From the NCBI GenBank assembly GCA_900316035.1, contig ONBI01000018.1, positions 1 through 32,900 of the forward strand: a DNA stretch of 32,900 nt. The letters are read 5' to 3'. Under the pieces are notes generated by a model. That model saw only the letters and a program-made list of their open reading frames with translations, ran no database searches and was not told the DNA's origin. Below, piece after piece: positions 12,260 through 29,397 of this stretch (the first letter of the stretch is position 1; every line of letters starts with the position of its first letter). The translations under genes were made by a program, and so were the position numbers. The stretch comes from an uncultured Eubacteriales bacterium (GTDB taxonomy: Bacteria > Bacillota_I > Bacilli_A > RFN20 > CAG-288).

Positions 12260-12539
12260 GGAAAGAAAGGAAAGGGCGGAGTGAATTCTATTTTCCAAAG
12301 CAGCTTTTTATCATAGAAAGTGTGTTTTTATGTGATGCGGGAGAAATTTTTATAGGATGTGTCCATCTTTTATTGGACGCTTAGAAAACGAACATTATCA
12401 GGTTCTTCCACCAGGAGGGATTTCTTTACTCTTTCCTTATTTTGTTAATCTTTTTTCGATGGATTGCAACGTGATATTGGTGAAAAAATCTCACTCACTC
12501 TGGACTTATCTTATAGTAAAAGCAAGGGAAATGACAAAG
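12260..12539. other. Intergenic region with helically phased TTTTTAT repeats
   Basis: This is the divergent space between the rml promoter and the response-regulator gene. On the plus strand TTTTTAT occurs at 12305, 12325 and 12347, that is at 20- and 22-bp steps, about two helical turns. These are A-tracts on the minus strand, upstream of the rml -35 box, and could bend DNA, act as UP-like elements or bind a dimeric regulator. A short inverted repeat GTCCA/TGGAC lies at 12361-12378. No convincing -35/-10 pair for the regulator gene was found. The open frame from 12357 to 12539 lacks a ribosome site and is not annotated. Confidence 0.4.
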
Positions 12540-12883
12540 ATGATTAAGGTGGCAATCGTTGAAGATGACTTATCCAGCCAACATATGCTCACGTCCTATC
12601 TTCATCAATATGAAAAAAGCAAAGAAGAACTTTTTGAAATTCACTGTTTCACGAACGGACTTGCTTTCATTGATAACTATACTGCGGATTACGACCTTAT
12701 TTTCATGGATATCGAAATGCCTTTTATGAATGGCATGGAAGCTGCTAAGAAATTGAGAGAAAGAGATGAAGATGTCGCTCTCATCTTTATGACTATCTTC
12801 TCCCAATATTCTCTTTTCGGATATGAAGTGGATGCCAGTGCTTTTTTAATTAAGCCACTCAACTATGACATCGTCAAAAATAA

Positions 12884-12891
12884 ATTGGATA
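12884..12891. repeat. Target-site duplication, left copy (8 bp)
   Basis: ATTGGATA immediately precedes the left end of the IS and is repeated at 13982-13989 directly after its right end. Eight base pairs is the length the IS1595 family is known to generate. Confidence 0.95.
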
Positions 12892-12916
12892 GGGGAAATA
12901 CAACCACTGGTGTGCT
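12892..12916 (+). repeat. Left terminal inverted repeat of the IS (25 bp)
   Basis: Starts GGGGAAATACAACCACTGG and is identical over 25 bp to the reverse complement of 13957-13981. It diverges after base 25. Confidence 0.95.
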
Positions 12917-12939
12917 GACACCCTCTAAATTGCCGAAAA

Positions 12940-12948
12940 TGCTATACT
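12940..12948 (+). promoter_or_regulatory. Extended -10 promoter of the IS transposase
   Basis: TGCTATACT is a TG-N-TATACT extended -10 element. No -35 box is at the correct distance, as is common with extended -10 promoters. The predicted start point is near 12955, exactly at the base of the first leader hairpin (12956), which supports the assignment. Confidence 0.6.
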
Positions 12949-12954
12949 TATTCA

Positions 12955-13053
12955 AGCTACATAACTGAGACTCGAGAGACGGCCTCTAAAGAGTTATGTA
13001 GCAATAGTCCTTTCCCAGGTCGTCTCCCGAGTCCCGTGGGAAAGGACTTTTTT
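12955..13053 (+). ncRNA. Structured leader of the IS transposase: two hairpins with complementary loops
   Basis: Hairpin P1 pairs GCTACATAACT (12956-12966) with AGTTATGTAGC (12992-13002), 11 perfect pairs with a 25-nt loop. Hairpin P2 pairs AGTCCTTTCCCA (13006-13017) with TGGGAAAGGACT (13037-13048), 12 perfect pairs, then runs into six T. The P1-loop segment 12969-12984 is complementary to the P2-loop segment 13018-13033: 14 Watson-Crick pairs, one G-U and one A-C mismatch. The transposase ribosome site AAAGGA (13041-13046) is buried in the 3' arm of P2. The structure can therefore both terminate transcription and hide the ribosome site. The loop-loop pairing (or the alternative long duplex) would compete with P2. 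Stems and complementarity are read directly from sequence; the regulatory role is inferred. Confidence 0.65.
13006..13053 (+). terminator. Terminator hairpin directly before the transposase start
   Basis: A perfect 12-bp stem with a 19-nt loop is followed by T6 (13048-13053), three bases before the transposase ATG at 13056. It can stop read-in from the host operon as well as transcripts from the IS promoter. Confidence 0.75.
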
Positions 13054-13055
13054 CT

Positions 13056-13958
13056 ATGGGAAGAAAAAAGATACTCCGTTTCGACGACCTGGAAGTCGTC
13101 TGCTGTCCCTACTGTGGATCGGCGGATTTTAAGAAGGATGGTATTCGCTGCAAGAAGCAGCGCTACCGGTGCAAAGGATGCGGAAAGACTTTTACGGCAA
13201 CCACTGGGACGTTTCTGGCAAACACTAAGAAGAGTGAGGCCGCCTGGAAGAAATATGTGCTTTCTCTGACTAACGATCTTACGCTCAAGGCCGGGGCTGA
13301 AATCGGAGGCATGAGCAAGAACTCTGCTTTTCTGTGGAGGAAAAAGCTTTATTCCTGCCTTACTGTTTACGAAAAGAGTTTGGTTCTCGCTGGCACAGTC
13401 TGGTTCGATGAAATCTATTTCCCTGTATCAGAAAAAGATGAAATAAAGAGTGAAAAAGGCGGAAAACTGACCGGAATCAGCCGAAACAAGATTGCCGTCG
13501 AAGCAGCCGTTGATTCCTCCGATCGTTGTCTTGCCATAGTCATGGACAAAGGAAAGCCGACAGAAGACCAAATCTACGACGCCCTGTACAGCCACATCCA
13601 GAAAGGCTCTCTCCTGGTGCATGATCAATTCCGCGGACATGAGAAGCTGGTCAAGACAATAGGGGGAGGGGAGATTGCAGTCAACAGCAAGAATCCTATG
13701 GCCTTTTCGATTCTGCAGCCGATTGATTCTTTCTGCTCGCTCCTACGCCGTGTGGTATCGCTGCATATGGGAGAAAGCAAAGAGAATCTGCAGTATTACC
13801 TAGACTGGGCATGCCTAAGAAGATTCGCCAATACGATGAAACCGAGGGAGAGAAAGAAGCTCATGCTTAGATTCTGCGCATCTACCAGAACCGACTACAA
13901 GAGGCCGAGAAAGGAGAAAAAGAAGAGCATAAAGAGGAAGGAGAAAAAGAGGCCCTAG
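13056..13958 (+). CDS. IS1595-family transposase
   Basis: This 300-aa transposase moves the element. It begins with a zinc ribbon (C17-x2-C20 and C39-x2-C42 in CCPYCG and RCKGCGKTF), followed by a helix-turn-helix-like segment and an RNase-H-type core. The first acidic residue is D118 in VWFDEIYF and the second D190 in LVHDQFRGHE. At the third catalytic position (IS1595 members often have Asn in a V-N-S-x-H context) this protein has D224 in PIDSFCSLLRR, followed by ESKENLQYYLDW. The start is supported by AAAGGA 9 bp upstream, although that site lies in a stem. The stop codon TAG (13956-13958) overlaps the right inverted repeat. The C-terminal tail is strongly basic. Confidence 0.93.
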   Translation: MGRKKILRFDDLEVVCCPYCGSADFKKDGIRCKKQRYRCKGCGKTFTATTGTFLANTKKSEAAWKKYVLSLTNDLTLKAGAEIGGMSKNSAFLWRKKLYSCLTVYEKSLVLAGTVWFDEIYFPVSEKDEIKSEKGGKLTGISRNKIAVEAAVDSSDRCLAIVMDKGKPTEDQIYDALYSHIQKGSLLVHDQFRGHEKLVKTIGGGEIAVNSKNPMAFSILQPIDSFCSLLRRVVSLHMGESKENLQYYLDWACLRRFANTMKPRERKKLMLRFCASTRTDYKRPRKEKKKSIKRKEKKRP

Positions 13959-13981
13959 CACACCAGTGGTTGTATTTCCCC
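13957..13981 (-). repeat. Right terminal inverted repeat of the IS (25 bp)
   Basis: Reverse complement of 12892-12916, with no mismatch over 25 bp. Its outer end is TATTTCCCC, directly followed by the second target copy. Confidence 0.95.
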
Positions 13982-13989
13982 ATTGGATA
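13982..13989. repeat. Target-site duplication, right copy (8 bp)
   Basis: ATTGGATA, identical to 12884-12891. The reading frame K-L-D-K across the restored junction matches a continuous response regulator. Confidence 0.95.
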
Positions 13990-14350
13990 AGATTTTTTTA
14001 AGAAGGAATAGAGAAAATCTTTCTTTTATTATCTTCAGCGAAGGTGAGAACCATTACAAAGTTTTCTTCAAAGACGTTGTCTATGTTGATACTGTCCATC
14101 ATTATTGTTTCTACCACACGAAAGAAAGAAAAACATTCCGCAAATACCAGTCTTTGAACTTGGCCGAAGATAGAGCAAGAGACAATGGCTTCATCCGTGC
14201 TAGTTCTTCCTTTCTTATCAATCCTCTTTATGTCACCTCTTACACTAAAGACAGTGTCATTTTGGGGAGTTTTGCAACGATTCCTATCTCTCGCTCTTGT
14301 AAAAAAAGATTTTTTGAAGAATTGACACGTCATTTTGGAGAGCAACAGCA

Positions 14351-15688
14351 ATGATATTTGACCGCTTGATCGGGGAATCTATTTTCAATGGCTATAACGA
14401 CATTAAATTTATTATAGGGCGAGCTTTCTACCCCTTCTGGTTATTGATTTGCCTCAGTGTCTTCCTTTTTCCGTTACCTCGTCGCAAAGGATTCTTTTAC
14501 CGATGCGGTCTCTCTGTTCTTTTTCTCTATCTAACCTCTTATTGTGTTCCTATGTTTTTCTTTACGGACTATATCCCTATCAATGCAATCTGCATTCTTT
14601 TCGCTCTATCTGCTGGGGTTTACTTCTCCTTTTCTGTGAACAAGAAGACCGCTTTCTTCTATTCTGTCTCCTCGGCTTTGCTGCAAAACCTATCCTGGCA
14701 TATCGATAATATTTTCTTGGCTCTGTTATTAGATAACCAGTATTCCTCTATTGCCGGAGTCTTCCCTTTTTATCAGTGGGATACGGCACTATGCTATCTG
14801 ATTTCGTTATCCCTGACTCTTATTCCCACCTATTTCTTCATCTGTCTCCCTCTTAAGAAGAAGTCAGCCGTTGAGATTAAGAGCTTCAAACTGGTAGTGG
14901 AAGCCCTCTTCATTTTCATTGTGATTTATCTTTTCTCGCAGATGGTTCAGATTAGAGGAAATATGAGCTTTTTCACCGAAATATCGATAACTATCTGTGA
15001 TGTTTCTCTCTTAGTTGCGCTGTTTGCCATTTGTCGAGCGGATCGTTTGGCTCTCGAACAAGGAATCAAAGATTCTTTGCTTGCAAAAGAACAGAAACAC
15101 TATGAAGATCTGACTGCCAATATTGAAGTCATGAACCGCCGTGCTCATGACGTGAAATATCAACTTCTCGCTTTAGAAAAAGGAGAAATCGGTACAGGAA
15201 GCGAAAAGATGAAGCAGCTTAAAAACTCTATATATCTTTATGAGCGTTCTCCAAAAACTGGTAACGATGCACTGGATAATACTATCTGTGAGAAACAGGT
15301 TCTGTGCGAGGATAAACATATTACCTTGGAGTTGAGAATTGACGGGAAGAAGCTCTCCTTTATGAAACCGGAAGATATCTATGTTCTGTTCGGTAACGCA
15401 TTGGATAACGCGATTGAATGCGTTGTCTCCTATCCGCCAAAAGAGCGGCTTATCGAAGTGAACACTTATTCGAAAGGGTCCCTTTTCAAATTTCATATTC
15501 AGAATCCTTGTCACAGCGAAAGACAATTTCGCAATGGCCTGCCAAAGACTAGCAAGGAAGATAGTCTCCTTCATGGATATGGTGTGCAGAGCATGAAGGA
15601 GATTGTTGAACGCTATGGTGGGCATATCACCTTTGAAAATAAAGAAAACGTCTTTTCGGTTAACATTCTTTTCTTGATAAGAAGTTAA
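14351..15688 (+). CDS. GHKL-type sensor histidine kinase (set A)
   Basis: This 445-aa membrane kinase is the expected partner of the interrupted LytTR regulator, which it overlaps by four bases (ATGA). Residues 1 to about 230 form six or so membrane segments without a recognisable extracellular sensor domain. A helical linker follows. The phospho-acceptor motif MNRRAHDVKYQL has His near residue 266. The ATPase domain has the N box NALDNAIE (about 348) and the G box HGYGVQS (about 408), as in the AgrC/CitA-like GHKL group (HATPase_c_5). Such kinases often sense peptides or small molecules; the signal here is unknown. GGAG lies about 11 bp upstream of the ATG. The IS upstream may reduce or alter its expression. 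Confidence 0.9.
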   Translation: MIFDRLIGESIFNGYNDIKFIIGRAFYPFWLLICLSVFLFPLPRRKGFFYRCGLSVLFLYLTSYCVPMFFFTDYIPINAICILFALSAGVYFSFSVNKKTAFFYSVSSALLQNLSWHIDNIFLALLLDNQYSSIAGVFPFYQWDTALCYLISLSLTLIPTYFFICLPLKKKSAVEIKSFKLVVEALFIFIVIYLFSQMVQIRGNMSFFTEISITICDVSLLVALFAICRADRLALEQGIKDSLLAKEQKHYEDLTANIEVMNRRAHDVKYQLLALEKGEIGTGSEKMKQLKNSIYLYERSPKTGNDALDNTICEKQVLCEDKHITLELRIDGKKLSFMKPEDIYVLFGNALDNAIECVVSYPPKERLIEVNTYSKGSLFKFHIQNPCHSERQFRNGLPKTSKEDSLLHGYGVQSMKEIVERYGGHITFENKENVFSVNILFLIRS

Positions 15689-15692
15689 CCAT

Positions 15693-15723
15693 TTTTGTCG
15701 GCAATAACTACCAGTTTTGCCGA
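15693..15723 (+). promoter_or_regulatory. Candidate LytTR operator: direct repeat TTTTGNCG-N-TTTTGNCG
   Basis: TTTTGTCGG (15693-15701) and TTTTGCCGA (15715-15723) form an imperfect 9-bp direct repeat with a 13-bp spacer, 22 bp from start to start. LytTR regulators are known to bind paired direct repeats about two helical turns apart upstream of -35 boxes. The second copy ends 23 bp before the predicted -35 of the GH3 gene. The match is by layout only, and the sequence specificity of these regulators is not known. Confidence 0.4.
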
Positions 15724-15746
15724 GTGTAACCTCTTACATTCTCGCT

Positions 15747-15774
15747 TTGCTATTATCAATTCAGTCCTTATAGG
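15747..15774 (+). promoter_or_regulatory. Possible promoter of the first GH3 gene
   Basis: TTGCTA (15747-15752) and TATAGG (15769-15774) are separated by 16 bp, a moderate sigma-A match. This predicts a start near 15781 and a leader of about 54 nt. A weak promoter with an upstream direct repeat fits an activator-dependent gene. Confidence 0.4.
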
Positions 15775-15834
15775 GAACAGGAAAAACAAGAGAAACAAAG
15801 GAACCGTGCTTCTCTGCAAAGACAAAGAGGAAAG

Positions 15835-18642
15835 ATGAAACCAAAAAAGAAAATCTGGGGCATTGTAGGCAGTGCTTTAGCTTTGGTGTGTGCTGCTGGA
15901 GTCGTTGTTGCCGATGTCATGGTGAGCCGATACGCATCGATGATCAATCTGCATTTCCGATCCGAAACAAAGTCAAAGTCGAGCTTGACGGAAAAAGAAA
16001 CCTTATCGGCGGCGAGAGCTTTCACGGAAAAAGAAGAAGGGGAAGGCTTAGTCATGCTGAAGAACAACGGGATTCTCCCTCTCAGGAAAACGAAAATAAA
16101 CGTTTTCGGCAATTGTTCCGTACAAAACCTCTATCAGGGATCCGGGTCTGCTTCTTCTTGGTTTAAGCAGGAACAGAATGTCACTCTTCTGAAAGGACTC
16201 GAAAACGCTGGCTTTGAAGTTAATCCGGGATTGATCCAGTTCTATACAGACAACCTTCAGGAAAGGCAGGATCAGTCGGGAGGCAAAGCCAACATGACTG
16301 GAGCCGATGCCTCCATCTTCGAAGAAAGACTATCGCTATATGAATCCTATGATTACGACAATCAGAACATCTTAGATTATTCGAAAAACTTTTCCGACAC
16401 GGCAATCTATGTCATCGGCCGAGCCGGTGGCGAAGGCTCTGATGCCAAATTCGATATGGATGGTGTTACCGGTGGAGACAAAGGAAAACACTATTTTCAG
16501 CTTCAGCAGGTTGAACTAGAGCTTCTGGACTACCTAGAAAAGAATTATGCTAACGTCATCATCCTTCTTAATACCCCGGGACAGATGGAATGGGATATCA
16601 CGCATGATGATAAAATTGATGCTGCTTTATGGATTGGTATGCCCGGTTCTACTGGCTTTAATGCCGTCGGAGACGTTCTGACAGGAAAGATTTCTCCTTC
16701 CGGTCATACTGTGGATACCTGGCCGTATCTGTTCTCTTCGGATCCTACCTACTACAATTTCGGTGACTATACCTATGCCAATTTCACCGATCCTCTTAAC
16801 CACAACCGAAACCATTATGTTTACTATAACGAAGGCATCTATGTCGGTTATCGTTATTACGAAACGGCGGCTGCCGCAAATGCTATCCGCTACGGAGATA
16901 TCGTTCAGTATCCTTTCGGTTTTGGTCTAAGCTACACTACTTTCACTTGGTCTGATGCAAAATGGAAAGTCGGTGGAAAGGGTGGAGAAATCACTGTTAC
17001 CGTCACCGTTACTAATACCGGAAAAACATATTCTGGAAAAGATGTTGTCGAACTCTATTATAGTGCACCCTATAACAAGAACGAGGGTATAGAAAAGAGC
17101 GCAGTTGTTTTAGGGGCATTTGCAAAGACCAAGGAGCTTAAACCGGGAGAGAGCGACAAGGTAACCTTGACTATGGACTACGATGCTATGGCTTCCTACG
17201 ATTATAGAACAGCAAAAGCATATGTCCTTTCTGCCGGTGATTATCAGCTCTCTTTGCGTAGTGACTCCCATACAATCAAAGATGGCCTCACCCATGATTT
17301 TTCTATCGATACCAAGATTGTCTATGACGAAAAAGGTGGGAAACGAAAATCGGATCTTGTAGCTGCAACCAATCAGTTTGATGTTGTTTCTAACGGAGAC
17401 GGAAGCTTTGGCGTCAAGTATCCTTTCCTCACACGTGACAATTTCACAGGTACCTTCCCGAGCTCGAGAACACAATGCGATGGTGCTCTCGCAAACGAGT
17501 CCACGATTGCACTCATGGGCAACAAATATGCTGGTTCCAATATCGATATTGACCATCTTGATAAAGTCTACCCCGGTTACTCAAAACCTACGATGGGTGC
17601 CGATAACGGCTTAGTTGTCGCTGATATGATTGGCTTGGACTATACCGATCCGCTTTGGGATAAACTTCTCGATCAGCTTACCTTATCGGATTACAAAGAA
17701 CTTTTCGGAAACGATGGCTGGCACAATCCGGCAATCTTCTCTATTCAGAAAGCTACTGCAATCGATATGGATGGTGCAGAAGGTCTCCATGATTTGACTA
17801 CCGATAAGACGGGAAACCAATACACCATTACTGTTATATTGGCAAGTACTTGGAACCGTGAACTTGCCAAAGAATTCGGTGATATCTTCGGCGATGAATG
17901 CCTGGTGCATGGTATTTCCGGTCTTTATGCTCCTTCGATGAACACTCATCGTTCACCTTTCGGAGGAAGAAACTTCGAATACTATTCTGAAGATCCTCTG
18001 CTTTCCGGAAAGATGGCGGCTGCGCAGATTAAGGCTCTTTGGGAAGATAAAGGAGTTATGTGCTACATCAAGCATTACATGCTTAATGATCAGGAAACTC
18101 ATCGGCAGAACACTGTCCATACTTGGGCGAATGAGCAGGCAATCCGTGAAATCTATGCCCGTCCTTTCGAAATCTCCATTAAGGAAGGAAAGGCAATGGG
18201 CATCATGGCAGCCTATTGCGCAATCGGTCCTACTTGGACGGGTGCCAGCTATGCGGCAATGACGGAGCTGCCAAGCACCGAGTGGGGCTTCCAAGGAAGA
18301 ATCGTAACGGATGCCTGCGATGATTACATTACCTATTCTTCGGATGCGGCTGTCGTGGCAGGTGTTGATATGTGGCTTACTGCAATGAAGGCTCAGGTTT
18401 CCGAAAAAATCACTGGCTCTAATTACGGGCTGAATTGCTTACGGAAAGCCGCTCACGATCAGCTCTATGTATTTGCTAACTCTTGCGCAACGGAAATCAC
18501 TGTCAGCTATTCAAATGGTTGGAAATGGCTTGTTCTCTCAGCAAACATCCTCCTCTTCGCCGGTGCTGTCTGTTCCATTGTCTTCTTGGTTTACCCTGCC
18601 TTCTTCGTTAAGAAGAAAGAGAATGGTGTAGGAGGAAAATAA
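15835..18642 (+). CDS. Circularly permuted, membrane-anchored GH3 glycosidase (935 aa)
   Basis: This is an extracellular retaining beta-glycosidase of family GH3, such as a beta-glucosidase or beta-xylosidase. Domains run in reversed order. Residues 9-30 are an N-terminal membrane segment (IWGIVGSALALVCAAGVVVA). The alpha/beta-sandwich normally found C-terminal follows, with VIGRAGGEGSD (acid/base region, E200). An FnIII-like domain comes next (about 390-490). The TIM barrel is last, with NTHRSPFGGRNFEYYSEDP (703 on), IKHYMLNDQETHR (745 on) and nucleophile candidate D826 in IVTDACDD. A second membrane segment (WLVLSANILLFAGAVCSIVF) and a KKKEN tail end the protein. Both ends should face the cytoplasm and the enzyme lies outside. 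Reversed order is known from Butyrivibrio fibrisolvens and Ruminococcus albus enzymes. AGAGGAAAG precedes the start. The substrate is not determinable. Confidence 0.88.
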   Translation: MKPKKKIWGIVGSALALVCAAGVVVADVMVSRYASMINLHFRSETKSKSSLTEKETLSAARAFTEKEEGEGLVMLKNNGILPLRKTKINVFGNCSVQNLYQGSGSASSWFKQEQNVTLLKGLENAGFEVNPGLIQFYTDNLQERQDQSGGKANMTGADASIFEERLSLYESYDYDNQNILDYSKNFSDTAIYVIGRAGGEGSDAKFDMDGVTGGDKGKHYFQLQQVELELLDYLEKNYANVIILLNTPGQMEWDITHDDKIDAALWIGMPGSTGFNAVGDVLTGKISPSGHTVDTWPYLFSSDPTYYNFGDYTYANFTDPLNHNRNHYVYYNEGIYVGYRYYETAAAANAIRYGDIVQYPFGFGLSYTTFTWSDAKWKVGGKGGEITVTVTVTNTGKTYSGKDVVELYYSAPYNKNEGIEKSAVVLGAFAKTKELKPGESDKVTLTMDYDAMASYDYRTAKAYVLSAGDYQLSLRSDSHTIKDGLTHDFSIDTKIVYDEKGGKRKSDLVAATNQFDVVSNGDGSFGVKYPFLTRDNFTGTFPSSRTQCDGALANESTIALMGNKYAGSNIDIDHLDKVYPGYSKPTMGADNGLVVADMIGLDYTDPLWDKLLDQLTLSDYKELFGNDGWHNPAIFSIQKATAIDMDGAEGLHDLTTDKTGNQYTITVILASTWNRELAKEFGDIFGDECLVHGISGLYAPSMNTHRSPFGGRNFEYYSEDPLLSGKMAAAQIKALWEDKGVMCYIKHYMLNDQETHRQNTVHTWANEQAIREIYARPFEISIKEGKAMGIMAAYCAIGPTWTGASYAAMTELPSTEWGFQGRIVTDACDDYITYSSDAAVVAGVDMWLTAMKAQVSEKITGSNYGLNCLRKAAHDQLYVFANSCATEITVSYSNGWKWLVLSANILLFAGAVCSIVFLVYPAFFVKKKENGVGGK

Positions 18643-18644
18643 CA

Positions 18645-19115
18645 ATGAAGATGTTACAGCGTTTATCTTTGTTCGTTTCTTTTGGTTTTCTTTTCCTAAC
18701 GAGTTGTCAAGGCAATACCGAGATGAGAAAACAGGTAGAAGGCTGTTATCATGCCGGTGAGATTACTGTCACCGACAATAGTGGAAACAGCACTACCACC
18801 GACCGAGGAGCAGATATCATCGCGTTAGTCAATTCCGATCGGACCATCTATACGATTGCTGAAAATCCAGATTCGAAGTACACAATCGCTTCCCCTGGAC
18901 GTGGCACTATCATCTGGGGAATTAAACGAAACCAGATTTTCTCAAACATCGCTACTTGCTCTATTGAAGAGATAGAGTCCTGGGAAGTGACATTGGATGA
19001 AAAAGGAATGCCTACGGCAGTGTCGGGAATCGATTCTAATTGGGTTCCGTCGGCGGTTGTTGATGCTGTCGGAATGTCAGTTTTAGCTTTACAGGACGCC
19101 CTTAAAGCTTTGTAA
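18645..19115 (+). CDS. Small lipoprotein of unknown function
   Basis: A 156-aa protein with a signal peptide and lipobox FLTSC, lipidated Cys expected at residue 21 (MKMLQRLSLFVSFGFLFLTS, then C). It should sit on the outer face of the membrane. The mature part shows alternating hydrophobic beta-type segments (HAGEITVTDNSG, ADIIALVNSDRTIYTI, RGTIIWGIKRNQIF) and no family I recognise. It starts 2 bp after the GH3 stop. AGGAGG inside the end of the GH3 gene serves as its ribosome site, so the two are coupled. A terminator follows. By analogy with the lipoprotein in set B it may assist the GH3 enzyme or bind its substrate, which is inference from position only. Confidence 0.8.
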   Translation: MKMLQRLSLFVSFGFLFLTSCQGNTEMRKQVEGCYHAGEITVTDNSGNSTTTDRGADIIALVNSDRTIYTIAENPDSKYTIASPGRGTIIWGIKRNQIFSNIATCSIEEIESWEVTLDEKGMPTAVSGIDSNWVPSAVVDAVGMSVLALQDALKAL

Positions 19116-19134
19116 TCCTTAATCAATCGCAATT

Positions 19135-19174
19135 GGGCTATTCGCTTTCCTTCAGGGGAGTGAATAGCCCTTTT
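19135..19174 (+). terminator. Rho-independent terminator after set A
   Basis: GGGCTATTC (19135-19143) pairs with GAATAGCCC (19162-19170), with further partial pairing inside, and TTTT follows. It closes the kinase-GH3-lipoprotein operon on the plus strand. An outer CAATTG/CAATTG pair extends the symmetry. Confidence 0.75.
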
Positions 19175-19247
19175 CAATTGTTCAAGAAATATGGGGAGCG
19201 TTGGCTGTATGGAACTTCTTCTATGGGCCTTCGGGTGGGGGTGTAGA

Positions 19248-19568
19248 TTATGGTATTGCTTGCCGAATCGACCGTTTTTCTTTTCTTTGAGCTCTACATT
19301 CGAAGATATACATCCCCATAAGTGCTTCTTTAACCTTACTTCCTTCATAGGTGTTCAACGAATGAGTTTGCATTAGAAAGTCACATACTTTTTTGCTACT
19401 CCTGTTGTTGACCTTTACCCAGATATCGGCACGGAATGGTTTTGCCTTTATTTTGGAAAACGAAAACCCTAGGAACCAAAGCCAGAATAAGCCAATGGTA
19501 ACTGACGCAATGGTCCACTCCTCTTTTCGCTCAGGGATTACTTTTCTCCGTTTCGGAAAAGAGCACAT
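19248..19568 (-). CDS. Doubtful small membrane protein, or gene remnant
   Basis: In the 420-bp gap between the set A terminator and the end of the set B kinase, the minus strand has one 106-aa frame. It has one hydrophobic segment (WTIASVTIGLFWLWFLGF) flanked by basic residues, and a C-terminal basic part. I see no ribosome site, no relatives and no coupling to the kinase, whose stop is 29 bp before its start. It could be a degraded gene or chance. The rest of the gap (19178-19247 and 19569-19597) shows nothing. Confidence 0.22.
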   Translation of the reverse strand: MCSFPKRRKVIPERKEEWTIASVTIGLFWLWFLGFSFSKIKAKPFRADIWVKVNNRSSKKVCDFLMQTHSLNTYEGSKVKEALMGMYIFECRAQRKEKRSIRQAIP

Positions 19569-19597
19569 AGGTGTTATCGATAGATTACGTTTTGAAG

Positions 19598-20956
19598 CTA
19601 TCTCGGTTCCGTCTCTTTCTTCTTATCCTTCTTCACCTCATCGGCAGGGAAATAGATATGCAGAGCAAACGTCTGATTTTCCGTTTTGATATGCATCAGG
19701 CCGCCATATTTCTTGACGACATAAGCAATCGACTGCATCCCGTAGCCATGAAGATCCGTATCCTTCGAAGAAGTGACCGGAATACCATTCTTCATCTTGA
19801 TGGTACCGGCAAAAGAATTCTCTTCGTAGATGAAACATCCTCCGGCTTCCTGACGGATCTTGAGAGTGATATAGCGGATACTTGGAGGGAGGAGATTCTC
19901 CGTAGCGACGATAGCATTATCCAGGATGTTACCGAACAGGGAGTAGATATCTTCGTTACTCATGAAGGAGAGGGCGTTCCCGTCTGCCATGCAACGGAAA
20001 TCGATTCCGTGGTTCTTGCTCATCAGAGACTTGCTCTGCAGGATGGTATCCAGCGAATGGTTGGAGGTCCGTAAGCGAGTATCGTAGATACGGGTAGCCT
20101 CTTCTAGGCTCTTGATGCTCTCGATGCTGATGGGACCGCCTTCCTTTGCCCAGTCCCGCAGTTGGTGCCGCAGGTCATGGGTCTTGATGTTGATAGAATC
20201 GATGGCTTCCTGCGTGATCTTATATTGTTTTGCCTCCTCTTTGCGGAGGTTATTGAGAACTTTGACTTCGCTCTGAAGCTCTGAGGAGAACACCTGGCCG
20301 AACATCAAGGCGAGCAACAGGAGGCAGCTGATGAAGTTTGCTAATATCAGAATGAAATAGGTTTGGTTTCCCATGACCCGCCTTGTCGGCATCGCATACA
20401 GGTTAAAGACGACATCGACGATACAGACGAGGACGCTGAAAAGGAGATTCCACCACGGAGCAAGAAGAATCTGAGATTCGCTTTTGATTTTCTTCTTCAT
20501 CCAATAGAAGCAGGGAAAACAGAGAAGCATGATGGCTATTCCGCTTGCCATCTGAGAAAAAGTCCTTGCCATCCGATTCTCCAGATTCGGGTTGATAACG
20601 AAGAGGACGAAAGGCCGATTCAGCAGGTAGATCATGTGGCGGATGGTATAGACGATGATTCCAAGGAAGAGAGCGGCGCGGAACTTCGTTTCCTGGCAGA
20701 AAAAGATGACGAATACATTCAGGAGAATGTCGATAGTGAATACCAGGATGTTGTACCAGATTTGCCAATCGGAAGAGACCGATAGGCTGAGCCAATAGAT
20801 CAGCAAGCCAAAACCGTAAACGAAGAGAACGGAGATTATCACACGCAGAAAATACAGCTTTCTCTGCGGCAGAGAAGAACCGAGATAGAGACAGATCGGA
20901 ATCATCTCGACAAGATTGAGAGAATGAATATTGGTAAAGAAGATTCCCCAGTTCAT
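19598..20956 (-). CDS. GHKL-type sensor histidine kinase (set B)
   Basis: This 452-aa kinase has about six or seven N-terminal membrane segments (residues 1-220), a coiled linker (KVLNNLRKEEAKQYKITQEA), the phospho-acceptor motif IKTHDLRHQLRDW (His near residue 260), N box NILDNAIVA (about 344) and G box LHGYGMQS (about 402). It overlaps the regulator stop by ATGA and has AGGAGA 6 bp before its start, so the pair is clearly co-translated. No periplasmic sensor domain is visible, so the signal is probably bound within the membrane region, as in AgrC-like kinases. It is the last gene of its operon; the next genes are convergent. Confidence 0.92.
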   Translation of the reverse strand: MNWGIFFTNIHSLNLVEMIPICLYLGSSLPQRKLYFLRVIISVLFVYGFGLLIYWLSLSVSSDWQIWYNILVFTIDILLNVFVIFFCQETKFRAALFLGIIVYTIRHMIYLLNRPFVLFVINPNLENRMARTFSQMASGIAIMLLCFPCFYWMKKKIKSESQILLAPWWNLLFSVLVCIVDVVFNLYAMPTRRVMGNQTYFILILANFISCLLLLALMFGQVFSSELQSEVKVLNNLRKEEAKQYKITQEAIDSINIKTHDLRHQLRDWAKEGGPISIESIKSLEEATRIYDTRLRTSNHSLDTILQSKSLMSKNHGIDFRCMADGNALSFMSNEDIYSLFGNILDNAIVATENLLPPSIRYITLKIRQEAGGCFIYEENSFAGTIKMKNGIPVTSSKDTDLHGYGMQSIAYVVKKYGGLMHIKTENQTFALHIYFPADEVKKDKKKETEPR

Positions 20957-21675
20957 GCATTATCTCCTAGATAGGCGGTGAATCTCTGAAGGAATTCCTT
21001 TTTCCGAGGATGTGAGATCAGAATCGGTTTCTCGATATTGTCGAGGTAGAGGTTATAGCCCTGAATCAGCTTGATATATTTCATATTGACAAGATAGCAG
21101 GTATTGCACTTGGCAAATTGTCTCGGATCCAGTAAGGCTTCGACGTTCTTAAGACTGCCGAAGGACTTCATGGTGTCACCATTTGCCATATGGAAAACCA
21201 GCCAATGGTCGATGACTTCGACATAGATGAGATCATCCGAAAGCAGGATATAGAGGCCTTGATCGGTTTTGATGGAGATCTTCGTCTGTTCTCCCTTCTT
21301 CTCGATCTGGCGGACGACTCGATCCATCAGAAGCGCAAGCTTTGAATAATCGATCGGCTTGAGAATATAATCCAGGGCCGAAACCTGATACCCTTGAAGA
21401 GCGTATTGGGAAAGATCGGTGACAAAGACGATGAGGACATCGTTATCCAGCTTCCGGAGCTTTTTGGCCACTTCGATACCGTTCTGCCCTCCCATGGAGA
21501 TATCGAGGAAAACGAGATCTTCATCCTGCTTCCGGTGCGCCTGGTAATCTTCTCCGGAGACGAAAGTGTTGATTTCCATGACGATAGATTTGTTTTTTCC
21601 GTATTCGTTGAGCAACTGCTCTAAGTTCTTACGGTGTTCTTCATTATCTTCGACGATTGAGATTTTCAGTAACAT
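20953..21675 (-). CDS. LytTR-family response regulator (set B)
   Basis: A 240-aa transcription regulator. The receiver domain has the acidic pocket VEDN, phospho-acceptor D58 in LVFLDISMGG, VTDLSQY and the conserved Lys in YILKPIDY. The LytTR DNA-binding domain (about 135-235) has LSDDLIYVEVIDHWLVFHMA, KCNTCYLVNMKYIKLIQGY and ILISHPRKKEFLQRF. It should respond to the kinase encoded directly after it. I start it at 21675 (MLLKISIVEDN), which matches its paralogues. The frame back to 21792 passes through the terminator and encodes an unlikely extension. GGAAAA lies 9 bp upstream. Likely targets are its own locus or the GH3 genes, which is inference. Confidence 0.92.
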   Translation of the reverse strand: MLLKISIVEDNEEHRKNLEQLLNEYGKNKSIVMEINTFVSGEDYQAHRKQDEDLVFLDISMGGQNGIEVAKKLRKLDNDVLIVFVTDLSQYALQGYQVSALDYILKPIDYSKLALLMDRVVRQIEKKGEQTKISIKTDQGLYILLSDDLIYVEVIDHWLVFHMANGDTMKSFGSLKNVEALLDPRQFAKCNTCYLVNMKYIKLIQGYNLYLDNIEKPILISHPRKKEFLQRFTAYLGDNA

Positions 21676-21687
21676 GTTTATTTTCCA

Positions 21688-21715
21688 AAGATAAGTTAGA
21701 CAGCGAGAATGCCAA
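21688..21715 (-). promoter_or_regulatory. Weak possible promoter for the set B regulator-kinase pair
   Basis: On the minus strand TTGGCA (21715-21710) and TATCTT (21693-21688) are 16 bp apart. The predicted start near 21681 would leave only a few bases before the regulator ATG. The terminator just upstream makes a separate promoter likely, but this particular match is weak. Confidence 0.3.
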
Positions 21716-21735
21716 CAGCAAAACGCCGGATTGAC

Positions 21736-21777
21736 GAAAACAGAGAGAAGGCTGCCGGTCAAAACCAGCAGCCTTCT
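21736..21777 (-). terminator. Terminator between the 970-aa GH3 and the set B regulator
   Basis: On the minus strand AGAAGGCTGC (21777-21768) pairs perfectly with GCAGCCTTCT (21755-21746) around a 12-nt loop that itself can form three pairs, followed by CTCTGTTTTC. It would uncouple the GH3 operon from the regulator-kinase pair. Confidence 0.7.
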
Positions 21778-21792
21778 AAGAAAGGAGAACAA

Positions 21793-24705
21793 CTATTTCT
21801 TCGCTTTCTTCTCTTTCGGAGACGGATCTTCCCGTTTCGAGACGATTATTATAGCCGGGATACCCCAAGCGAGGATGACAAGAGGAATCAGGATATCGAC
21901 GACAATCCAGATAATCTGATACGGAGCGATTCCGGAACGATAACTGATTCCGCTTCCGTGACCGTTCATGGCTGCGGAATTGCCAACCATATATAGGACA
22001 TCCTTCATCGCATTTCGCAAGACAGTGACATCTCCGGCATTCGTTTTATCCGCATTCGTCCAGAAACGAGAAGCGGAAAGGTTGAGGTTGCCACCGGCAT
22101 ACGTCATCTGTTTGACCGGCATATAGGAAGGAGTGTTGAAATCATCGATGATACCGCCGTGGAATCCCCATTCCTTCTTCAGAATCTGTGTCAGCAACCG
22201 GTAATCCCCACCGGTCCAACGGACACCGATACGGTTGAAGGAGGTCATGAGAGCAAGCGCCTTTCCTTCCTTGACTCCGATTTCGAAAGGACGGAGATAG
22301 ATTTCGCGGATCGACTGCTCATTCGCCCAGGAGATATCACCATTGCTCTGGCGATGTGTCTCCTGCTCGTTGAGAGCAAAGTGCTTCATCATGCAGTAGA
22401 CGCCTTTGCTTCTGGCTCCGCGGATCTGGGCAGCTGCGAGTTTTCCCGTGAGGAACGGGTCTTCTGAGAAGTACTCGAAGTTTCTTCCTCCGAAAGGAGA
22501 ACGATGGATGTTCATGCCCGGTGCATACCATCCCGAATAAGGAGTGGTGCCGGTACCCAGGATTCCTTCGTTTCCGACGTGCTTTCCGAACTCCTCTAAG
22601 ATCTCCGTGCTCCAGGTCTGAGCGAACATCACCTCGGAGGAGTAAGCGCAGCAACCGAAGAAAGTGGTTTTCGACATGAAGTTGACGAATCCGACCGGAC
22701 CATCGGTCTCCAGTGTTGCCGGCTTATCGACAGAAGCAATCGCATCGGTCTTGAAGTTCGCATGGTTGAGTACCTGAACCATATCTTCGAAAGAAATCTG
22801 GTTGAGAAGGGTTTCCCAATTTTCGTTGTCCCAAGAGATATAAGGGTGGCCTTCTTCGTCTAACTTTATATTGCCATCCTTATCCTTCTCAAAGAGGTCG
22901 TATAGTTTCAGTGAAGTGGAAGCATCTCCTTGCGTCGGAACCTCACTATAGGTGTTGGGGTTGTTGGGTTTGCGGTCCTTAAGAAGAGCCATCAAGGCTT
23001 CGCTGAACTGATGGTCCTCGGTCGCCGGGGTCTTCGGGAAAGTCCCTGACCAATCGTTGCGGGAGAGGACAGATTGCAGATGGTAATCGGAATCCATCAT
23101 CGGATCCGCGTTATCCGTGAAGACGTTCTTGACTTCCTGCCCGGTGACGGGGTCCTTATCGAAGCGGATATCTTCGGCAAGATTGAGCGTGAAGGAATCC
23201 AGAGCGGTATGGGCATCGCTGCGGAGAGAGAAGACATAATCGCCTTTCTCCAGTTCATAGCCCTTGAAACCGTTGTTGTTCTTGTCTTTGTAGTCATAGG
23301 AGGCAAGATAGTACGGATTGACTTCAATCTCCAGGGTTTCGCTCTTTCCCGGTTCCAATTCTTTCGTCTTTCCAAAACCGATCAACTGGACTTCGCTCTT
23401 CTCGATACCACCTTTGGTATAAGGAACATGAGCATAGAGCTCAGCAACTCCCTTGCCGGCTTTTTCACCGGTGTTGGTAACCTTGACCTTGACGGTGAAA
23501 GCGTCTTTTGTCAGGGAAGAATAGCTATTGTCTTCGAACTCATAGGAGAAGGTGGTGTAGCTGAGGCCATAGCCGAAAGGATAGACGACATTCTGGTTAT
23601 ACCAGTCTTCGTCGTTGGCACCTCTTGTCTCATAGTAGCGATAACCGACATAGATTCCTTCTTCATAATCGACGAAATAGTAGAACTGCTTCTTATCGCC
23701 CACATAGACCATATCGCCGTTTTCCTGACTGTTATCGCCGAAATTCTGGTAGGACGGAGCAAGGGTGAAATCCGTGGCATAGGTGTCGGCGGTGTGTCCG
23801 GAAGGATTGACTTCGCCCGTGAGGATCTTTCCTAATGCCATAACACCGGTTTCCCCGGTTCCCGGCATCAGGAAGACGCCATCGATTTTGTCGGCGAATT
23901 CCCCGGATTTTGTAAAACCGAGTTCCATGGCATTGCCGGAGTTGATGACGATGGCAACTTTCCGGAAACCGGCGTTGACAACTTCCTTAAGCATCTCCTC
24001 TTCGTTGGCATCAAGCTCGAGATAATGTCTTCCGGTCTCCTGAGAGACGCGGGGAAGATCGAAGCCTTCGCCGCCGATACGGGAGAAGACGACAAGAGCC
24101 AGATCGTTATAGGATGCATAGGAGGATTTGACGGCGGTAGTATAGGCAGAGTAGGGTGTTTCCCCGGTTGTCAGAGTGACCGACGCCCCGCTATCGAGAT
24201 CGCTGGGGTTATTCGGTCTCCCGCTTCCGGAATTCTTCCCTTCATAGAATGCTTTCAGGGTAGGATTTGTTTCAAAACCGGCATCCTGAAGAGAATCGTA
24301 AAGGGTCTTGGCATCCTCGGTATTGACGGCACCGGAACCCGAGCCGCCATAGACGATGTTGACCGAGTTCTTGCCGAAGACCGAAATCTTGCTGCCCTTA
24401 GCGATCGGGAAGGCGTTGTTGCGGTTTTTGAGCATGACGATGCCCTCTTCCGCGACTTTGATGTTGAAATCGTTGCCGTTCTTCTTGGCTTCCTCTTTGG
24501 TTTTGGCTTCTGCCTTGTAATACTGGAGGTTTCCGACATCTCCATCGGCAATCTGCTTACCGGATCCTAGCAGGGTGATGAGAAGCTCAGAGACCGTCGT
24601 ATTGGCAAACGCAATATTGACTGCGGCAAAAAGCACGACAAGAACCATCGAGACGATGAACCAGACTCGTGTCAGGGCATAGCCGAAAAATTTCTTGCGG
24701 TTCAT
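21793..24705 (-). CDS. Circularly permuted, membrane-anchored GH3 glycosidase (970 aa)
   Basis: An extracellular GH3 beta-glycosidase with the same reversed domain order as its neighbours. Residues 14-34 form an N-terminal membrane segment (VWFIVSMVLVVLFAAVNIAF). The alpha/beta-sandwich starts at VAEEGIVMLKNRNNAFP and includes VVFSRIGGEGFD (about 208-219). The FnIII-like part (about 400-510) has VKVKVTNTGEKAGKGVAELY. The TIM barrel carries NIHRSPFGGRNFEYFSEDP (about 733 on), MMKHFALNEQETHRQ and nucleophile candidate D855 in GGIIDDFNTPS. The C-terminus has a hydrophobic stretch (WIVVDILIPLVILAWGIPAI) and a long basic tail ending KEKKAKK. Two anchors imply that the catalytic body is looped outside the membrane. 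It lies 10 bp after the CBM-like lipoprotein gene, with which it is probably co-transcribed. Substrate unknown. Confidence 0.88.
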   Translation of the reverse strand: MNRKKFFGYALTRVWFIVSMVLVVLFAAVNIAFANTTVSELLITLLGSGKQIADGDVGNLQYYKAEAKTKEEAKKNGNDFNIKVAEEGIVMLKNRNNAFPIAKGSKISVFGKNSVNIVYGGSGSGAVNTEDAKTLYDSLQDAGFETNPTLKAFYEGKNSGSGRPNNPSDLDSGASVTLTTGETPYSAYTTAVKSSYASYNDLALVVFSRIGGEGFDLPRVSQETGRHYLELDANEEEMLKEVVNAGFRKVAIVINSGNAMELGFTKSGEFADKIDGVFLMPGTGETGVMALGKILTGEVNPSGHTADTYATDFTLAPSYQNFGDNSQENGDMVYVGDKKQFYYFVDYEEGIYVGYRYYETRGANDEDWYNQNVVYPFGYGLSYTTFSYEFEDNSYSSLTKDAFTVKVKVTNTGEKAGKGVAELYAHVPYTKGGIEKSEVQLIGFGKTKELEPGKSETLEIEVNPYYLASYDYKDKNNNGFKGYELEKGDYVFSLRSDAHTALDSFTLNLAEDIRFDKDPVTGQEVKNVFTDNADPMMDSDYHLQSVLSRNDWSGTFPKTPATEDHQFSEALMALLKDRKPNNPNTYSEVPTQGDASTSLKLYDLFEKDKDGNIKLDEEGHPYISWDNENWETLLNQISFEDMVQVLNHANFKTDAIASVDKPATLETDGPVGFVNFMSKTTFFGCCAYSSEVMFAQTWSTEILEEFGKHVGNEGILGTGTTPYSGWYAPGMNIHRSPFGGRNFEYFSEDPFLTGKLAAAQIRGARSKGVYCMMKHFALNEQETHRQSNGDISWANEQSIREIYLRPFEIGVKEGKALALMTSFNRIGVRWTGGDYRLLTQILKKEWGFHGGIIDDFNTPSYMPVKQMTYAGGNLNLSASRFWTNADKTNAGDVTVLRNAMKDVLYMVGNSAAMNGHGSGISYRSGIAPYQIIWIVVDILIPLVILAWGIPAIIIVSKREDPSPKEKKAKK

Positions 24706-24715
24706 AAAGCTGTTC

Positions 24716-25486
24716 TCACTCTTCGAATGCCGCTAAGTTCTCTTCGTGTTTCGTATAGGAAAGAGAGGAACCGGAGAGATGAGAGAGCTTGATGCAATCG
24801 ACCATCGGAGCGGTAGCATACATGGTTCCGCCCATCGTGATATCGTTGATCGTGACAAGATCGATCTCGTTCTTTCCCTCGACAAGATCGATAGTGACGG
24901 CGCTGGTCCGATCGGTGAACGGACGGACATAATTATCCGAATCCGAGGTAGAGGCGCCCGCCAAGGAGAAAGAGCCATATTCAATACCACGGCTGCTACT
25001 GTCGGAATCATTGACCCGGACTGCCCAGAGATCGGGTGTAAGCTCCATATCCTTGATTTCGCAGGAGAGGCGGAGAGTAAGCGTGACTCCGGTGACTGCC
25101 TTTGTGGAATTGAAAACGAAATTGAGGGAAAGACCCTTGTTGTAGAGATAACCGACCCAATAACCATTGGAAGCCTTGGCAGAGCCGTCTTCGTCTTTCT
25201 GAACCATATCGGCGCCATCGGCTCCCCCGGAATATCCGTGTCCTGCCTTCGGGGTTCCGTCGGCTTCGTAAAGGTCGGTATATTCCGCTTCGATGACGAA
25301 GGTATCATCCGCGTCTGTATTTGAGCTTTCCTTCTCTTCCGAGGAATCCTTTGGTGTCGAAGGGACCGACTCGGACGGCTGAACCGGTTTACTGCTCGAA
25401 GAGCTCGTTTCCGATCCGGTTTTCTGGCAAGAAGCGACGATAGGAAGCATGAGCGAAAGCAAAGCAAATTTTCCTAATTTTTTCAT
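24716..25486 (-). CDS. Lipoprotein with a CBM6/CBM35-like carbohydrate-binding domain
   Basis: A 256-aa exported lipoprotein with lipobox IVASC (Cys20). A Ser/Pro/Glu-rich, probably flexible linker spans about residues 23-60. A single beta-sandwich domain (about 62-240) opens with FVIEAEYTDLYEAD, continues with GYSGGADGADMV and GYWVGYLYNKGLSLNFVF, and ends with VEGKNEIDLVTINDITMGG ... PMVDCIKLS. The IEAE opening, the GYSGG segment, the L-x-x-G-x-N-x-I strand and the final D-x-I-x-L are the pattern of family 6/35-type modules. It probably holds a glycan near the neighbouring GH3 enzymes. AAGGAG with good spacing fixes the start. It lies between two GH3 genes on the same strand. Family assignment is by pattern only, and the ligand is unknown. 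Confidence 0.8.
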   Translation of the reverse strand: MKKLGKFALLSLMLPIVASCQKTGSETSSSSSKPVQPSESVPSTPKDSSEEKESSNTDADDTFVIEAEYTDLYEADGTPKAGHGYSGGADGADMVQKDEDGSAKASNGYWVGYLYNKGLSLNFVFNSTKAVTGVTLTLRLSCEIKDMELTPDLWAVRVNDSDSSSRGIEYGSFSLAGASTSDSDNYVRPFTDRTSAVTIDLVEGKNEIDLVTINDITMGGTMYATAPMVDCIKLSHLSGSSLSYTKHEENLAAFEE

Positions 25487-25527
25487 CCGTTGTTCTCCTT
25501 ATATCTGTAGTTTTCCTATAAAGGCGG

Positions 25528-25560
25528 AAGGACTCTTAGCCAAAACGGCTAAGAGTCCTT
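25528..25560 (-). terminator. Perfect 14-bp hairpin between the 1221-aa GH3 and the lipoprotein genes
   Basis: AAGGACTCTTAGCC (25528-25541) and GGCTAAGAGTCCTT (25547-25560) pair without mismatch around a 5-nt loop. On the minus strand what follows is CCGCCTTTATAGG, a poor T-tract. It may be a partial terminator or an mRNA-stabilising or processing hairpin that sets different levels of the flanking genes. Confidence 0.55.
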
Positions 25561-25590
25561 ATCCGCACTCATCGACCCGAAATCTTCGTC

Positions 25591-28500
25591 TTACTTATCG
25601 TCTTCGTCCTTTCTCTTCTTCAGAAGCAGAGCGCCACCGAGAAGAGCCAAAGCACCGACGGTGCTAGCCGCAGCAATCACGCTTCCGCCGCAGCCACCGC
25701 TCTCCGTATCGGACTTGTTGTCGGTATCTTTATTGGCATTGTCCTTGAGAGCAGCAATTTCTTTTTCCAGCTCCGCAATCTTATCTTTGTTGGCGGTATC
25801 GGTAGCCTTCATGTCCGCGAGCTCTTTTTCCAGCTCCGCAATCTTCTTCGCGGTCGGATCTTCCTCCGGTGTATCCGTAGGTAAGGTACCATCGGCATTC
25901 TTGACGGTGATGGTGAAGGTTTCCTTGAAGTTGTAGACGGCGGTACTGCGTCTGGAGACAACCTCGGCATGGAGATTGGCTTTGAAAGTATAGACGCCGG
26001 CTTTAGTAGGAGTGCCCGTAATCGCTCCGTCACTTGCTAACGTGAGGCCTTCCGGAAGCTCTCCTTCGGCGACCGAATAAGCGAGGTTGCTGTAGTTGCG
26101 TTCCGAAGTGATGACATCCGAAGTCAGAGCGCCCGTATAGGCAGTGCCGACCACGGCCTCCGTCTTATCGAGAGTGACGCCAGGAGCGACGGTGAGAGTG
26201 TACTTAAAGTCTTTGGTAATCCAGCCATCGAAAGTGATGCGGATGACATAATCGAATTTACCCGATACCATCGGACTGCCGGAGAAGGCACCGGTCTTCT
26301 CATCGAACCGGACACCTTCCGGAAGGCTTCCGGAGATAATCTTGTAAGAGACTTCCTTCTCTTTCGTACTGACCGCAGCGGAGACGTTGCTCAGAGTCGT
26401 TGCGACCTTACCGGACCCGGTTCCGTCTTGGATGGAATCGGTCTTGATGCCGTTCTTAATCGCATTGCTGTTGACGTAGGTGTAAAGCGACTTATGAACG
26501 GTTTCACGGAGAGCGGTCCACTGCGTCGGGGAAGCTAAAGTGGCCGTTCCTGCGGTCGCTTCGGCTTCGTCTTTTGCGACATAGACCATATTCTTGTCTT
26601 TGTCGTAAGTACCTTCGATCTTGTAGCCGGCCTGATTGACCGAACCCATCGGATAGACATGGCAACGGACATAGGTATTGCCCGGCCACTTGTTGGTTCC
26701 GATATCGCTGTCGGAGACACCTTCGAAGCCCCATTCGCCTTCGAGGATATTGACATAGAGGTCATAGTTGATGGAACGCTGGATACCGATACGGTTGAAG
26801 GAAGCCATCGTTCCGTTGCAATCTCCCTCTTCGACGGCAATCTGGAACTGCTTGAGATAGACTTCACGCATCGCCTGCTCATTGACATAGGTGAGAACAC
26901 CGCCTGTGGTTCCGCGGTTCATTTCCTGATCGTTGAGAGCAAAGTGCTTGAGGTAGACGTGCATACCCTTGGAGCGGGCGCCGCGGACGACTTCGGCAGC
27001 GATCTTGCCACCCTGGACGCCGTCCTGAGAGTAGTACTCGAAGTTGCGGCCGGATAAGGGCGAACGATGTGTATCGCAGGCAGGACCATACCAGCCGGTG
27101 AGGTTGAGAAGCAAGGACTCGTTTCCGACCATCTGGCCTTGACGGTTTGCCAATTCTTTGTTCCAGGTAGAAGCGATGTTGACCTCGCAGACCCACGACA
27201 TGCCATAGAGCTTGAGCTGAGAGTTCTTCAGCTGAGCCGGGCCGTCATCGTCGTTCTCTTTGAGCTTTCCAATACCCTCGATGCCGTTCATCTTACGGGA
27301 GTTGCCATTGAGATAGGTGACCATCTCCTCATAGGAGAGATTGTTGAGAACGGTATCCCAACTTGCATCGCTGTAGGATTTCCCGATCATGGTAGTGAGG
27401 TCGACACCTCTGTCGGCGGCCGTCGGTTTTGCTTTCGCTTCGGCATCGGTCAGCTGCTTCCAGGTAGAAGGAACGCTTGCCTGATACCAAGAATCAGTTT
27501 CTTTATCCGTATAAGCATAGCTGGTGTACTGGCTATCGAGCAGATCTAAGGCAGCTTTGCTGTACTTGAGATCGTCTTCGGTCGGAACACTCGGGAAGGT
27601 GCCGACGAAGTTCGCTCTCGACATATTCTTCATACCAGCATCTGCTGAGGCGGTCGGGGTCTTGGAAGTGTTGTTGAGGTCATCCTGCGAATAGTAGGCC
27701 TTGATGTCCTTATCCGTGACGTCGGATTTTCCGAACTGCTTCGATTCGGCAAGGTTGTAGGTAACTTCGCAACCGTCTTTGACGGTGTGGGAATCACTTC
27801 TTAAAGAGATGACGTAGTCTCCTTTTTCTAATTCATAGCCGGTGAAGCTGTTGCTGTTGGCATCGTTATAATCGAAGGAAGCCATATCTCTCGCCTTGAA
27901 AGTGAGAGTGACGGTCTGGGATTCCCCAGGAAGCAGGAGCTTCGTCTTAGCGAAATCAACGAGGTTGACTTCGGCTTTCTCGATGCCGTTTTTCGTATAA
28001 GGTGCTTTATAGTAGGCTTCGACGACATCCTTACCTGCATAGGAACCGGTGTTGGTGACCTTGACTTTGAGCTGGATTTCGTTTTCGGTGTCTAACGCGC
28101 CGGATTTCGGAGTGTCGACCAATTCCCAAGAGAAAGTGGTATAGGATTTTCCGTAACCGAACGGATAGACGACAGCCTTGTCATAGTCGAATCCGTTATA
28201 GTTTCCGGCTTTCGCTTCGGCATCCGCCGTTTCATAGTAACGGTAACCGACATAGATGCCTTCCTCGTATTCGACTTCACGATAGGTCTGTTTCCATCCC
28301 GGAGCCATATGAGCCGAGCCATCGGGATTCGTGATGATCGACTTCGGAGTGAAAGTATACTTTCCGTCTTCTCCTTTGGTAGGAGCGACCTGAGAGTTGT
28401 CGGAGAAGTTGTTCCATGTCGGATCCTTTTTGAAATCACGAGGATAGATATCGACGGTACGACCGCTCGGATTGATTTTGCCTCTTAAGACATCCCCTAA

Positions 28501-29256: not shown

Positions 29257-29332
29257 GTGGAATCATGACCTCCTTTGCGATGAAAGACTTCTGAGGGAGC
29301 AACGGAATAACACTCTTTGGGCTGGGCCAAAG

Positions 29333-29397
29333 AAAAAACGGAATACTTAAGAATCGCCCTTTTTTCCCAGCGAATAAGGGATGTATTCCCAAGTATT
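29333..29397 (-). terminator. Terminator-like hairpin in the leader of the 1221-aa GH3 gene
   Basis: On the minus strand the RNA of 29397-29385 (AAUACUUGGGAAU) pairs with 29354-29342 (AUUCUUAAGUAUU) over 13 positions, two of them G-U. The strand then runs CCG and T6 (29338-29333). Short CCC/GGG helices can form within the loop. A second, 6-bp hairpin (29331-29314) follows before the ribosome site. If the promoter at 29433-29461 is right, the terminator lies inside the 170-nt leader and would act as an attenuator. Confidence 0.55.

Follow-up and report, generated by a model that had tools for sequence, protein, structure and literature searches.

An IS1595-family insertion sequence with a structured leader

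The window analysed here, a stretch of 32,900 nucleotides from contig ONBI01000018.1 of an uncultured Eubacteriales bacterium (assembly GCA_900316035.1), contains an insertion sequence of 1090 bp (12892-13981) in which a putative leader RNA precedes the transposase gene; the element and all its parts are read on the forward strand. It ends in perfect terminal inverted repeats of 25 bp (12892-12916 and 13957-13981) and lies between two copies of an 8-bp direct repeat, the target-site duplication ATTGGATA (12884-12891 on the left, 13982-13989 on the right). A target duplication of 8 bp is the rule for IS1595 elements. The transposase (13056-13958, 300 amino acids) has an N-terminal zinc ribbon and an IS1595 domain; it scored 87.1 bits against NCBIfam NF033547, above the cut-off of 75, and just 21.5 against Pfam PF12762, below the cut-off of 27. 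Based on the transposase, the inverted repeats and the target duplication, the element belongs to the IS1595 family, as an earlier note on this DNA had proposed. It is present as a single copy in its own assembly (G000).

Transcription of the element is predicted to start at about 12955-12956, downstream of an extended -10 promoter element, TGCTATACT (TG-C-TATACT, 12940-12948). The foot of a first stem, S1, coincides with this start: its 5' arm (a, 12956-12966) pairs with its 3' arm (a', 12992-13002) through 11 Watson-Crick pairs out of 11. A second stem, S2, forms between 13006-13017 (b) and 13037-13048 (b') with 12 Watson-Crick pairs out of 12, and is followed by a T-run (13048-13053, the first T being the last paired base of S2) and by the ATG at 13056. 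The 3' arm of this terminator-like hairpin contains the Shine-Dalgarno (SD) sequence AAAGGA (13041-13046). Finally, the two loops are complementary to each other. The segment x within the S1 loop (12969-12984) can pair with x' within the S2 loop (13018-13033) in a duplex of 16 columns, here called X, with 14 Watson-Crick pairs, one G-U pair and one A-C mismatch. The promoter, both hairpins and the loop complementarity are thus present as the earlier note had described them. A generic terminator scan missed S2 because its loop limit was 8 nt.

The leader folds more stably than chance would predict, with a minimum-free-energy z-score of -4.84 and none of 200 shuffles as low, in a fold that cannot contain X. 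When the three interlocking helices were scored together, their sum was 92.8; none of 3000 dinucleotide shuffles reached it, the best attaining 62.2, which bears out the earlier suggestion that such an arrangement is unlikely to arise by chance. A search of Rfam (release 15) gave no match near the gathering score for the window leader, and for 20 relatives it gave only unrelated tRNA and glycine riboswitch matches. Searches of the open-access literature found nothing relevant on an IS1595 leader, pseudoknot or attenuator, although such an absence is weak evidence. Judged by its sequence, the leader is a real RNA element, since dozens of related elements keep the loop pairing with quite different letters; it is apparently previously undescribed, and most likely limits transposase synthesis.

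Conservation of the loop pairing among related elements

We searched 274 genomes of the order and 395 of the class with a hidden Markov model (HMM) built from 14 transposases. The search gave 133 unique upstream regions, of which 129 had the length needed for the helix test. The relatives came almost entirely from metagenome-assembled or other Bacilli genomes, with hardly any sampling outside Bacilli. Across the 129 regions the best score for two crossing helices was bimodal, about 60 regions scoring 58-94, compared to shuffle maxima of typically 41-57 and at most 63. The pseudoknotted layout is therefore common to about 60 of the 129 transposase upstream regions, while the leader sequences themselves are unrelated. 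With the named element on the plasmid of Tenericutes bacterium MO-XQ included, 64 leaders passed, and 45 were left after near-copies had been removed. The longest X among the relatives has 27 pairs out of 27. This corrects the scope of the earlier note: the leader RNA is not confined to the window element and is shared by a large clade of IS1595-like elements.

All three helices were conserved with compensatory change, the outcome that the earlier note had proposed to look for in relatives. When strands were swapped between elements, mean pairing fell from 36.2 and 37.4 with the own strand to 11.9 and 12.6 with a foreign one. Among the non-redundant leaders, G-U pairs outnumbered A-C mismatches by 44:13 and 27:8 in two helices (71:21 together) under a scoring symmetric between the two. 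This excess indicates that the pairing is selected in the sense-strand RNA, as a DNA inverted repeat would not give it. An independent search with a consensus of stem S1 alone found, in 16 of 16 loci, a -10 box before S1 and an X of 19-27 bp after it, on the strand of the -10 box; 14 of the 16 loci had a transposase match. In the relatives S1 begins about 6 nt past the -10 hexamer, which puts its foot at the predicted +1.

Closer to the window element, the same leader was found in L004, from a metagenome-assembled Erysipelotrichaceae genome (63% protein identity over the best segment), with X kept through changes. Within the window's subfamily (three complete leaders and one partial), four X pairs have changed on both sides, and 93.8% of the X cells are paired in the three complete leaders; the corresponding count for S2 is not informative because MAFFT misplaces the S2 arms in this alignment. 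Farther relatives, whose proteins are about 25-35% identical, have unrelated leader letters in the same layout (e.g., L007, L008, L010, L014, L019). The first few relatives had hinted at a conserved central mismatch in X, which was gone once more leaders were compared. No conserved leader peptide was seen by eye, and the GTG frame of one subfamily was not kept.

The named IS1595 elements ISSag10, ISCco2, ISCaje5, ISCaje6, ISAchd1 and ISHja1 have no long pseudoknotted leader; most of those examined show a plain promoter, SD and start. They share with the window element the transposase family and the compact organization but not the leader. Relatives with an in-frame TGA, presumably read as tryptophan, were also without it. 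A phage collection gave two streptococcal matches only, and viral contigs searched with the window protein gave none.

Layout types and the transposase tree

Helices were assigned by an automatic finder and the resulting layouts sorted by eye into three types. Type A, which includes the window, has the order a x a' b x' b', usually with the SD within b' and often with a T-run next. Type B leaders (x b x' b') end with b' directly against the AUG, typically as TTGGCGG / CCGCCAA, and have neither an adjacent SD nor a T-run. Type C leaders (a x a' x') have X itself in front of a T-run or of the start region. A predicted intrinsic terminator thus precedes the transposase gene in the window and likewise in many type A relatives, but not in type B.

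On the transposase tree, the leader is present in almost all of one half, which comprises 39 rows. Five rows of this half were classed as 'none'. In two of them, L039 and L041, the layout can be seen by eye; L136 is broken by a run of N, L067 is cut off, and only L011 is clearly without a leader. Type B forms one cluster, with the exception of a single long-branched row (L058). The classical IS1595 elements are placed elsewhere on the tree and are without the leader.

Two subgroups show additional motifs. Six type B leaders (L013, L033, L034, L065, L089, L140) carry an SD-like GAAAGG a long way upstream, immediately in front of x. If X formed, this motif would move closer to the AUG, as in a bridged ribosome site. 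In the MO-XQ-like leaders (L188-L193, L200, L183), a second copy of the SD arm, AAAGGAAC, immediately precedes x in the S1 loop. It could also pair with b, making a fourth alternative helix possible, although order and topology gave no clear model.

Mobility of leader-bearing elements

Multi-copy elements show that the leader lies inside the mobile unit. Genome G430 has five copies of a leader-bearing element of 1173 bp that are 99.9% identical (L172-L176), and genome G406 has three identical copies (L177-L179). The MO-XQ plasmid, which belongs to a cultured strain, carries a leader-bearing element with 25 of 25 X pairs. All five G430 copies, and apparently also the three G406 copies, are inserted in A/T homopolymer tracts with A-rich target duplications, and several of these insertions hit the T-run of an intrinsic terminator. 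The G430 and G406 elements thus look to have a target preference for terminators. Genome G430 also contains a second, different IS1595-like family (L204) in at least five copies, with a leader of type C layout.

A proposed switch between two folds

We propose that the leader acts in cis on the transposase gene through two mutually exclusive folds, S1+S2 being OFF and X being ON; we regard this model as having about an even chance of being correct. S1 would form once RNA polymerase leaves the promoter, holding x in its loop. In the OFF state, S2 would terminate transcription and bury the ribosome site, so that no transposase is made. In the ON state, x would pair with x' before b' is made, and both transcription and ribosome binding could proceed. 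In the simplest reading this is an attenuator: S2 both ends transcription and hides the ribosome site, X competes with S2, and S1 in turn delays X. How fast S1 gives way to X while the RNA is being made would determine a low, stochastic amount of transposase, and pausing of RNA polymerase or a bound factor might adjust this rate. For type B, the switch would work in the same way but at the level of translation only.

In type A leaders, x and x' are separated from their enclosing arms by linkers of mostly 0-5 nt. With linkers this short and at least 16 pairs, X should not be able to coexist with closed S1 and S2, so that X and S1+S2 would be alternatives. Energies were calculated by the nearest-neighbour model for nested helices only. 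On this basis X was more stable than S1 in 19 of the 20 type A leaders with a usable helix assignment when the nascent RNA ended before b', and in the full leader S1+S2 and X were within 8 kcal/mol of each other in 15 of these 20. Such energies are compatible with a two-state switch. What the data show are the helices, their covariation, their place relative to promoter, SD and start codon, and their presence in elements that have multiplied recently. The mutual exclusion is inferred from linker lengths and energies, and the choice of ON state, the kinetics and any role of a factor are inferred too. Together, these data make it plausible that the leader attenuates transposase expression, with X as an antiterminator or as an alternative that releases the SD.

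Several observations weigh against this model. In the window itself X is 8 kcal/mol less stable than S1+S2 and would therefore need a kinetic advantage to prevail. The true ground state may be a partial kissing complex, in which 6-8 X pairs form while S1 and S2 stay closed, and this could stabilise OFF rather than open it. In L118, L120, L124 and L125 X is followed by a T-run and itself looks like a terminator; the long linkers from a to x in this variant would let S1 and X coexist, and the logic may differ there. Considering this variant and the one that has no T-run, a terminator plus antiterminator is not the whole story of the family.

More broadly, we suggest that these leaders, which a large clade of IS1595-like Bacilli transposons carries, represent a kind of cis-regulatory RNA not described before, 'loop-swapped tandem hairpins' (a x a' b x' b'). 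The loop-loop duplex of 16-27 bp crossing both hairpins would be a transposase switch, possibly acting also between RNA molecules as a self-counting device without an antisense gene. We put this wider proposal a little short of an even chance.

Such action between molecules could also be the primary function. A terminated leader RNA of about 100 nt would then accumulate, and its x or x' loop would kiss the nascent leader of any copy, block the intramolecular X and enforce termination, giving copy-number control from the same strand. Loops of 20-27 nt with 16-27 complementary bases suit intermolecular kissing and full duplexes, and such an RNA would be protected by the S1 foot at +1. Multi-copy elements do exist, and their leaders are identical between copies but, as the strand-swap test showed, mismatched between families. 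Yet pairing in cis predicts the same covariation, the stable small RNA is hypothetical, and the variant in which S2 abuts the AUG has no T-run and hence would give no terminated RNA. We consider this explanation unlikely.

Another reading, which also seems rather improbable to us, is that X persists as a long hairpin core with a loop of the UUGGCG type, and that this loop forms S1 or S2 as a pseudoknot. The folded pseudoknot would regulate synthesis by binding the transposase, a host protein or the ribosome, much as repZ of plasmid ColIb-P9 is controlled. According to the titles of Asano et al. 1998 as cited in PMC10724649, and to a summary in PMC8383071, the repZ/Inc RNA switch of I-complex plasmids comprises a 5'-UUGGCG hairpin loop, a pseudoknot upstream of the ribosome site, and competing pairings that control translation. 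Of 46 leaders, 24 have UUGGCG in the X loop, against an expectation of 0.4 from shuffles, and its partner GCCAA is the 5' end of the RNA in types A and C or the bases just before the AUG in type B. In type C the linker from a to x is also long enough for S1 and X together. In contrast, the 0-5 nt linkers of most type A and B leaders are too short for a full X with S1 or S2, the window has GUAGCAA in place of UUGGCG, and protein binding is hypothetical. The likeness to ColIb-P9 is a resemblance rather than membership and may be coincidence: a start-proximal partner of UUGGCG is found in type B leaders only, the duplex has 16-27 bp, and no leader peptide is conserved. Furthermore, the plasmid's replication initiator is regulated by an antisense RNA, whereas the IS1595 leaders show no antisense promoter enrichment.

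The remaining explanations are weaker. Located some 65-160 bp inside the left end of the element, the repeats might act as DNA, either as subterminal transposase-binding sites or as a cruciform; the excess of G-U over A-C and the locking of their position to promoter, SD and AUG make this very unlikely. Like an IS110 bridge RNA, a structured RNA with two loops adjoins the transposase, and the loops could be guides choosing DNA targets. We regard this as extremely improbable, as the loops are unchanged in copies at different sites and have no match to the flanks, the G430 element sits in A8 tracts unlike x, and the transposase belongs to the IS1595 and not the IS110 family. Comparisons of x and x' with the window flanks, and of x with the flanks of the five G430 copies, gave no consistent match beyond shuffles. 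We give almost no credence to coincidental hairpins or a plain terminator remnant left by insertion into a terminator: related elements do insert into terminator T-tracts, but the leader is part of the mobile unit and is conserved clade-wide with compensatory change.

Relation to known RNA controls

In IS10 and IS50 a fold-back structure limits transposase synthesis at the ribosome site, and the earlier note had compared the window leader to these elements. The comparison holds in part: RNA structure or base pairing at the ribosome site restricts transposase synthesis in IS10, IS50 and IS200, too. Unlike the window leader, these elements rely on fold-back involving the element end, on antisense RNAs and on Hfq, and to our knowledge none of their controls has tandem hairpins with complementary loops. 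In a fold-back of the IS10/IS50 type, masking occurs only in read-through RNA, through the outer end of the element. This does not apply to the window leader, in which the masking arm b is downstream of the predicted start and thus present in the element's own transcript. Similarly, the location of the S1 foot at the predicted +1 of the element suggests that its own transcript, and not read-through alone, is what is controlled.

Antisense RNA limits the transposase of IS10 and IS200 (PMC4963395). Control of this type, as also in ColIb-P9 and pT181, was considered for the leaders and rejected: reverse-strand promoter-like sites occurred at 0.22 per element compared to 0.19 in shuffles, against 0.90 and 0.31, respectively, in the sense-strand control.

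The order of helices resembles that of trp-type and riboswitch-type attenuators, with an anti-antiterminator (1:2), an antiterminator (2:3) and a terminator (3:4). In contrast to these, the alternative helix of the leader pairs loops instead of arms and crosses both hairpins, and it comes with no leader peptide that we could see and no known ligand.

The control of rare transposition in very compact insertion sequences is known in detail for few elements, and mostly involves antisense RNA. The entire clade described here appears to have placed this control in a single, self-contained leader of about 100 nt that shows strong covariation. The long duplex between the loops of two adjacent hairpins would be a new RNA architecture for studying co-transcriptional folding. 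The layout also provides a sequence-independent marker for finding such elements, and is directly testable with point mutants.

Genomic setting of the window element

The window element interrupts the gene of a LytTR-family response regulator. The split gene spans 12525-14354, with the receiver domain before the element and the LytTR DNA-binding domain after it, so that the break falls between the two domains. The partner GHKL histidine kinase (14351-15688) is intact. From 14351 to 32168, large GH3-like glycoside hydrolase genes (15835-18642, 21793-24705 and 25591-29256) are interspersed with several LytTR response regulator and GHKL kinase genes, the enzyme family being judged by reading the sequence only. 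This arrangement suggests repeated regulator-enzyme cassettes.
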